Source: Sulfurovum sp. (GTDB taxonomy: Bacteria; Campylobacterota; Campylobacteria; Campylobacterales; Sulfurovaceae). From it: a stretch of DNA of 58,618 bases. Position numbers and translations under genes: made by a program. Under the pieces are notes generated by a model. That model was not told the DNA's origin and ran no database searches. It saw only the letters and a program-made list of their open reading frames with translations. This document shows, piece by piece, positions 282 through 31,951 of the stretch. Every line of letters starts with the position of its first letter. Within the stretch, counting starts at the first letter, position 1. The stretch covers positions 1 through 58,618 of the forward strand of contig JALSUP010000140.1 in NCBI GenBank assembly GCA_027071315.1, given 5' to 3'.

Positions 282-307
282 GTCGGGGTGAGGGCACCCC
301 GACCTAC
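282..307 (-). repeat. REP-like hairpin A (GTAG + 9-bp stem)
   Basis: On the minus strand the element reads GTAG, then GTCGGGGTG, a 4-nt loop (CCCT), and CACCCCGAC. The 26 bases are identical to the copy at 21873-21898. A 5' GTAG next to a short palindrome is the known hallmark of REP sequences mobilised by REP-associated tyrosine transposases (RAYTs); no such gene is in the window. Confidence 0.8.
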
Positions 308-21101: not shown

Positions 21102-21137
21102 AAAAAATTTCATAATAGCCCTTAGTGCTATTATGAA
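21102..21137 (-). terminator. Rho-independent terminator of the efflux permease
   Basis: On the minus strand an 11-bp hairpin (arms TTCATAATAGC and GCTATTATGAA, 7-nt loop) is followed by ATTTTTTG. It starts within the last codons of the permease gene and separates it from the convergent transglycosylase-like gene. Confidence 0.7.
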
Positions 21138-22336
21138 CAGCAAGATCCTCCCGAACACTCCTCCTTCTTTGTAAAGTAAGGCTTCAGTATAAACCACAAT
21201 ACCAGAGTCCAAAGTACAATACTCGAAACAATTGAAATGATACCTGCTTCTTCATGCAGATGAATGAGTGTTGCCGGATCAATGGCAGACTTGTCAAAAA
21301 TGTAGTCTAAGCCAAGACCAAAAACAATACTTCCAATGACAATACTTCCCAAATAGATCATCAGAGACTTTGTACCCATCATCTTTTTAACCACACCAAT
21401 GGTCACCGTATTGGTTGCCGGACCGGCAGAGAGAAAGACAAAAGCGGCACCGGCAGAAACACCGGAGAGCATAAGACCTGCGGCGATCGGCAGAGAAGCC
21501 GTTGCACAGACGTACATGGGTACGGCAATAATAATAACAATAATGTAAGAGAGCCAGCCATAAGTTTGGAGCAGTTCGGAAAGATTTTCCGGAATGGCAA
21601 CGGTAATGAGCGCTCCGAGCAGAAGTCCCCAGAAGAGTGGTTTGGCAATGTCTCCCAGAAGGGTCACAAAGGCATACTTCATGGCTGCCGTAAAAGAGAA
21701 GCCCTTTTTCTCCTCTGCACCTGCACTACAACAGGAACCGGTACCTGTACCGCAAGACTCCTCCTCTTTTTTGGGTGTTGACATGGAAAATGTATTGGCA
21801 GTTGGTTTGCTATCACCTAAAGCAGATAGCTTAGTGGGATTGTTGAATTTGAGGGTGTTACCACTATTCATTGTCGGGGTGAGGGCACCCCGACCTACAG
21901 GTATATTCTCTTCCTCTTTTATCTCTTCTTTGTCGAAAATATTGGTCAGTATGCCTGCTACCATGGCAATGATCATTGAAGTGACTGCACGGTAGAGCGT
22001 GAAGATCCAGCCGAAGATACCGTATGTTGCCATAATGGAATCGACGCCTGTAATAGGTGTAGAGATGAGAAAAGAGAGGGTTGCCCCTTTGCTTGCCCCT
22101 GATTTCTTAATGGAAGTCGCCAGAGGAATGACACCACAGGAACAGACAGGCAGGGGGATGCCGAAGATGGTAGATTTGACTACGGAAGAGACATTGTCTT
22201 TCCCCAGATGCTTAGTTACGATGCTGTCGGGGACGACTTCATGCAAAATACCTGCAAACGCAAGACCGAAAAGAATGTAGGGTGCCATGGCAATACTGAG
22301 TTGCCAAAGGGCTTCAAAAAAATGTGTAATTTCCAA
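21131..22336 (-). CDS. Cu/Zn-type efflux permease (SO_0444/ArsP-like), REP insert in loop
   Basis: A 401-residue permease of the DUF318/ArsP superfamily. The first helical half carries PLPVCSCGVIPLA, a metal-binding signature. A long cytoplasmic loop (about 140-215) contains SCGTGTGSCC, and the protein ends in CSGGSCCS; such Cys clusters suggest soft-metal export (Cu, Zn or similar). Part of the loop, VGRGALTPT, is encoded by a REP-like hairpin. The start is TTG, supported by AAAGG 6 nt upstream. A Fur-like box overlaps the promoter. The nearest named family is the SO_0444 Cu/Zn efflux transporters. Confidence 0.8.
   Translation of the reverse strand: MEITHFFEALWQLSIAMAPYILFGLAFAGILHEVVPDSIVTKHLGKDNVSSVVKSTIFGIPLPVCSCGVIPLATSIKKSGASKGATLSFLISTPITGVDSIMATYGIFGWIFTLYRAVTSMIIAMVAGILTNIFDKEEIKEEENIPVGRGALTPTMNSGNTLKFNNPTKLSALGDSKPTANTFSMSTPKKEEESCGTGTGSCCSAGAEEKKGFSFTAAMKYAFVTLLGDIAKPLFWGLLLGALITVAIPENLSELLQTYGWLSYIIVIIIAVPMYVCATASLPIAAGLMLSGVSAGAAFVFLSAGPATNTVTIGVVKKMMGTKSLMIYLGSIVIGSIVFGLGLDYIFDKSAIDPATLIHLHEEAGIISIVSSIVLWTLVLWFILKPYFTKKEECSGGSCCS
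21873..21898 (-). repeat. REP-like hairpin B inside the permease gene
   Basis: Identical over 26 bases to element A at 282-307 (GTAG, GTCGGGGTG, CCCT, CACCCCGAC on the minus strand). It is read in frame as VGRGALTPT in the cytoplasmic loop of the efflux permease. Confidence 0.85.
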
Positions 22337-25626: not shown

Positions 25627-25652
25627 GTAGGGTGTTGTCCCCCGACAACACC
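25627..25652 (+). repeat. REP-like hairpin F (variant stem)
   Basis: GTAG, then GGTGTTGTC, loop CCCC, GACAACACC. Same 4+9+4+9 layout as elements A-D but an unrelated stem. It forms an outward-GTAG inverted pair with element G, 43 nt away. Confidence 0.75.
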
Positions 25653-25695
25653 AATAATACGATTGGCACAATAATAATTAATCATCCGAATATTT

Positions 25696-25721
25696 GGTGC
25701 TGTGAGGACACAGCACCCTAC
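25696..25721 (-). repeat. REP-like hairpin G (variant stem)
   Basis: On the minus strand: GTAG, GGTGCTGTG, loop TCCT, CACAGCACC. Partner of element F in the 223-nt gap between the flavoprotein and methyltransferase genes. Confidence 0.75.
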
Positions 25722-31804: not shown

Positions 31805-31830
31805 GTAGGTCGGGGTGTCCCCACCCCGAC
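31805..31830 (+). repeat. REP-like hairpin C
   Basis: GTAG, GTCGGGGTG, loop TCCC, CACCCCGAC. Differs from A and B only in the loop. Confidence 0.8.
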
Positions 31831-31925: not shown

Positions 31926-31951
31926 GTCGGGGTAGGGGTACCCCGACCTAC
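31926..31951 (-). repeat. REP-like hairpin D with a compensatory change
   Basis: On the minus strand: GTAG, GTCGGGGTA, loop CCCC, TACCCCGAC. The last stem pair has changed from G-C to A-T on both arms, so pairing is kept. Confidence 0.8.

Follow-up and report, generated by a model that had tools for sequence, protein, structure and literature searches.

The window, a 58,618-nt stretch of DNA from the genus Sulfurovum (assigned from named orthologue records), carries a permease gene whose reading frame runs through a short GTAG-tagged repeat. The features of this locus are as follows:

21131..22336, minus strand: SO_0444 family Cu/Zn efflux transporter (ArsP_1 permease), 401 aa (PF03773, NF033936)
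21716..21913, minus strand: predicted disordered, length-variable loop, residues 142-207, between two helical halves (AlphaFold2 pLDDT <50; alignments)
21873..21898, minus strand: class A GTAG-REP singlet GTAGGTCGGGGTGCCCTCACCCCGAC, read as VGRGALTPT, residues 147-155 (sequence identity, RNA hairpin)
21725..21757, minus strand: Cys cluster SCGTGTGSCCS, residues 194-204, within the disordered loop (translation)

The permease matches Pfam ArsP_1 (PF03773) with 151.6 bits and the NCBIfam model NF033936, 'SO_0444 family Cu/Zn efflux transporter', with 397.2 bits against an equivalog cut-off of 300, so the label of metal-efflux permease that the gene had been given in an earlier note is right. Transport of Cu/Zn is predicted from family membership, and Cd and Cu strongly induce a member of this family in Nitratiruptor (PMC10092412). 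AlphaFold2, run on a 42-sequence alignment, gives pLDDT values below 50 at residues 142-207 with helices on either side, a model that supports the reading of this loop as a disordered linker, and a position on the cytoplasmic side is plausible. The repeat and the Cys cluster do share this loop, but to describe them as adjacent, as the earlier note did, is loose: SCGTGTGSCCS starts at residue 194, about 40 residues past the insert.

The repeat is 26 nt long (plus-strand letters GTCGGGGTGAGGGCACCCCGACCTAC) and on the minus strand reads GTAG followed by GTCGGGGTG CCCT CACCCCGAC, that is, a GTAG tag, a perfect 9-bp stem and a 4-nt loop, with an RNA hairpin of -17.5 kcal/mol (z -3.3). It has the form of a GTAG-type REP, in which a 5' GTAG precedes a short palindrome within a total of 20-40 nt. 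The whole element is translated, GTA GGT CGG GGT GCC CTC ACC CCG AC(A) giving V147-T155 in frame, and gene homology extends over both of its sides (ArsP_1 over residues 5-341, NF033936 over 10-380). Both the identity of the element as a REP and its in-frame reading, as first proposed, are therefore borne out. The permease copy is a singlet and does not form a REPIN, in which two inverted REPs make up one unit.

Copies of the element and their link to RAYT genes

The window holds three further copies of this class, which we call class A:

282..307, minus strand: class A REP singlet, identical, upstream of a 237-aa ORF at 347-1060 (sequence match)
31805..31830, plus strand: class A REP with 2 differences, half of a diverged inverted pair (sequence match)
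31926..31951, minus strand: class A REP with 3 differences, the other half of that pair (sequence match)

The identity of the permease element with the copy at 282-307, already remarked on in the earlier note, holds over all 26 nt, and in shuffled sequence no match to the element is expected. Across its own genome (2.59 Mb in 217 contigs) we find 51-52 class A copies with at most 3 differences and none of a reversed control pattern, and 17 places other than the permease match its element at 26 of 26 positions. Many copies form inverted pairs with the GTAG ends facing outward and about 42 nt between them, i.e. REPINs of about 94 nt. Class A is thus a high-copy, dispersed and mostly intergenic repeat, with 49 of 51 copies not deep inside a conserved-looking ORF, and 16 of 60 related genomes, each of them from the genus, carry it as well. 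That the element is a chance palindrome in an ordinary variable linker would fit the poor conservation of this linker, but the perfect identity at 17 other places and the shuffles, which predict no match, leave this reading with virtually no probability. Chance resemblance is rejected on the copy number and identity of the class A element.

A draft metagenome assembly could also join contigs falsely through a repeat, and both the fragmentation into 217 contigs and the position of several REPs near contig ends would be compatible with such an artefact. We nonetheless consider it very improbable: both flanks of the element lie in one ORF, in frame, within an intact permease, the 26-nt element is shorter than usual assembly words, and a genome assembled as a single contig (G024) has a REP in the same loop.

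Class A is also associated with RAYT genes, which encode Y1_Tnp proteins. In a related genome (G014), class A REPs lie to either side of the RAYT gene at C67:136771-136983, just as class B flanks such a gene in G024 and class C in G018. A search of the seven Y1_Tnp genes of the permease's own genome found none flanked by class A; RAYT genes there are flanked by other GTAG classes, namely D (C7), E (C78 and C148) and F (C68). The genome may have lost its class A RAYT gene, or the assembly may lack it, and mobilisation of class A could also take place in trans. Several REPs of this genome lie near contig starts (C62:35, C86:35, C146:195, C179:155). This suggests breaks in the assembly at REP or RAYT repeats, where a class A RAYT gene could be concealed. 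In some RAYT genes the coding sequence itself includes an in-frame REP or REPIN of the gene's own class (L262:1038-1523, from G014 C67, and L186:1275-2021, from G018 C282). Two of the other classes are present in the window as well, as a mixed inverted pair (25627-25721) of REPs 43 nt apart:

25627..25652, plus strand: class D REP GTAGGGTGTTGTCCCCCGACAACACC, of a class that flanks a RAYT gene in the same genome (sequence match)
25696..25721, minus strand: class B REP GTAGGGTGCTGTGTCCTCACAGCACC, of a class present in the permease loop of other species (sequence match)

Recurrent occupation of the permease loop and of other genes

We compared the loop with that of about 80 permease orthologues in which it could be read. 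Neither VGRG nor GALTPT occurs in the loop of any of them, and the observation that would have spoken against an insertion, the same residues in distant orthologues without the hairpin, was thus not made. Loop length among orthologues ranges from 38 to 109 aa with a median of 61, and the 87 residues of the window permease exceed the 61-63 of its nearest relatives by about 25, of which the REP accounts for nine. The earlier expectation that orthologues should lack about nine residues (26-27 nt) therefore stands as far as the missing residues are concerned but not as a simple length difference, since the entire loop differs in length. A clean indel of 26-27 nt cannot be drawn because the excess is about 25 residues rather than nine, and insertion boundaries cannot be placed because overall identity is only about 80% even with the nearest orthologues. 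The 15-17 extra residues are not explained by the REP, and those that follow the insert gave no REP-class match above shuffles when searched for a second, decayed REP or for a REPIN spacer. The present singlet may once have been part of a longer insert, since singlets in Pseudomonas have been seen as REPIN remnants (PMC3116915), and by this analogy a longer insert could also explain part of the extra residues.

In other Sulfurovum species, GTAG REPs of two further classes lie in frame in the same permease loop. Class B (GTAGGGTGCTGT..ACAGCACC) is present in antisense and read as GAVGVQHPT in four permeases (L042, L077, L079, L084), with one residue changed in a fifth (L043) and altered copies in the loops of two more (L078, L082). 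Class C (GTAGGGGYAGAT..ATCTRCCC) forms an inverted pair in four permeases (L040, L044, L128, L133), with the approximate reading RVDM.S.PT...KPVGADSIS, and is decayed in another (L086). Both are repeats with multiple genomic copies, 44 of class B in G024 and 19 of class C in G018. With counts that include related sequences, a GTAG hairpin occurs in 13 of 84 loops against 0.52 expected and a maximum of 4 in 500 codon shuffles, and by a stricter scan, likewise including related sequences, the 15 kb of loop sequence contain 10 hairpins and the 80 kb of remaining gene sequence 1 (p ~9e-8). A permease tree built without the loop, some of whose backbone is weakly supported, puts the three REP classes in separate positions. 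A single origin is enough for class B, the minimum for class C is one, with two the probable number, and class A was found once; there have therefore been at least three insertions, at different loop positions. These three classes, together with the variable length and predicted disorder of the loop, agree with one of the two readings offered at the outset, that the loop tolerates inserts.

The permease loops of L041-L043, L077, L079 and L082-L084 and the anmK loops of L217 and L221, all from one clade, share a second recurring palindrome of approximately the form GCATCRCAAAGYGATGC, with ATTCCTCATTCCTCATTC-like tracts behind it. This may be a further small mobile repeat.

The gene anmK itself takes up REPs in a similar way. 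A class A copy is in frame in anmK of the permease's own genome (C71:7876-7901; AnmK PF03702, 449 bits), and the same anmK loop in other species holds whole REPINs (L200, L218, L219) or a single REP (L208) of another class. In these genes and in L192:1489-2586, the in-frame REPs or REPINs of different classes sit before the residues DVQRTLLELTA. A palindrome of the CTTCGACAGGCTCAG...CTGAGCCTGTCGAAG type is in frame in the anmK loop of G014 (L215).

Intragenic REPs extend to further genes in two genomes that were picked for the REP in their permease and are not a random sample. With intragenic copies counted in stretches taken from the genomes, 6 of 40 class B copies in G024 lie inside five genes, encoding the permease, a poly(A) polymerase/tRNA nucleotidyltransferase-like protein, an FAD-binding dehydrogenase subunit, PriA and MurD; the MurD gene contains a full REPIN. 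Of the 19 class C copies in G018, 8 fall within ORFs, namely those of the permease, an NFACT protein, the tail of a DEAD helicase, the class's own RAYT protein and one ORF without a Pfam match. Outside the permease, anmK and the RAYT genes, the in-frame loci are L249, L248, L222 and L230 in G024 and L256 and L255 in G018. The ORF of L263 matched no Pfam family, so its REP enters the counts as an ORF case only; probably spurious ORFs in the long-ORF scan (e.g. L241, L227, L225 and L228) were dropped by eye from the gene lists. A census of class A in another genome, G001, gave no convincing intragenic copy. The generalization that REPs are nearly always intergenic, on which the earlier note had drawn, thus holds poorly across the genus: ORFs contain 8 of 19 class C copies in G018 and 6 of 40 class B copies in G024, as against 2 of 51 class A copies in the genome studied here.

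A probably tolerated insertion and what it means

Neutral tolerance best explains the insert in the permease loop. We consider it probable, at roughly 0.85, that a REP inserted into a disordered linker, was tolerated and is now translated, and that this linker is a recurrent landing site for independent REP classes. RAYT proteins act on single-stranded GTAG hairpins (PMC8266576), and a mobile hairpin of this RAYT (Y1 transposase) type, a GTAG REP, would enter the gene segment for the disordered, poorly conserved linker that joins the two membrane halves. A REP or REPIN would probably be copied into the loop with a length and frame that keep the ORF open; the disorder of the linker would leave the protein little affected, and the insert would be tolerated and translated as VGRGALTPT. 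Different REP classes would enter the linker independently in different Sulfurovum lineages and then decay or be replaced, giving rise to the present variety. We infer that the insertion was the work of a RAYT protein, that the singlet is either the insert itself or a REPIN remnant, and that the pump still works.

The insert might instead have been kept for a function. At the DNA level it could serve as a REP reservoir or a binding site, in the mRNA its hairpin could tune translation, and in the protein it could be a useful linker. The element of the window does form a strong hairpin (-17.5 kcal/mol), and among four species with class B in the permease no 26-nt stretch of the gene except the REP is fully identical (0 of 1256 other non-overlapping windows), although third codon positions are only 63-75% identical among them; a fifth class B species shows a paired change from A-T to G-C in the stem. 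When seven species are compared, however, the REP is no better conserved than many other windows, and these four class B species resemble one another unusually closely in the remainder of the loop too. The paired stem change equals other copies in that genome (G024), so that conversion or re-insertion explains it, most permease orthologues manage without a REP, and class C copies decay. The class B identity in four species is a hint of maintenance, conversion or re-insertion and not proof of function. We therefore regard retention for a function as unlikely, and the suggestion that the insert has been kept as a functional linker finds no direct support, its lone hint being this class B DNA conservation in four related species. 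A further-reaching reading, likewise doubtful, is that Sulfurovum has a few 'landing loops' in core proteins (the permease and AnmK) which repeatedly take RAYT-mobilised REPs in frame, and that some lineages then maintain the captured REP at the DNA level through selection for the hairpin or the peptide instead of mere tolerance.

Tolerated insertion of REPs within genes has precedents. Di Nocera et al. 2013 (PMC3733652) reported GTAG REPs within ORFs of several species, as singles and dimers like those described here, thought flexible linkers or loops to tolerate them, and listed Sulfurovum NBC37-1 among the species with GTAG repeats. The main text of that paper gives one same-site orthologue case, recB of two Xanthomonas species, whereas here three classes occupy one loop and the pattern appears again in anmK; individual Sulfurovum cases may already be in its supplementary tables. 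Rickettsia palindromic elements (RPE) are likewise short palindromic repeats in frame in likely functional proteins, but, as described in the same paper, rickettsial intragenic elements are of the CGTC type or the longer RPE-1, and the CGTC repeats are without an associated transposase gene, unlike the GTAG tag and RAYT association seen here. The REPIN/RAYT systems of Bertels and Rainey 2011 (PMC3116915) share with ours the inverted REP doublet as mobile unit and REPs flanking RAYT genes; they were described as extragenic, whereas many copies of two classes lie within genes here. Intragenic REPs are thus already known, and what is new, relative to the main text of PMC3733652, is the repeated independent capture by different classes in one loop, in two gene families; judged by that text, repeated REP capture at one spot has so far been thinly documented.

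These data describe a route by which selfish hairpin DNA turns into protein sequence, with the same protein loops struck repeatedly by different repeat classes. Across one genus, two gene families provide a natural series of insertion, replacement and decay, and such series are usable to measure REP movement, the survival rate of insertions and which protein segments are truly dispensable.
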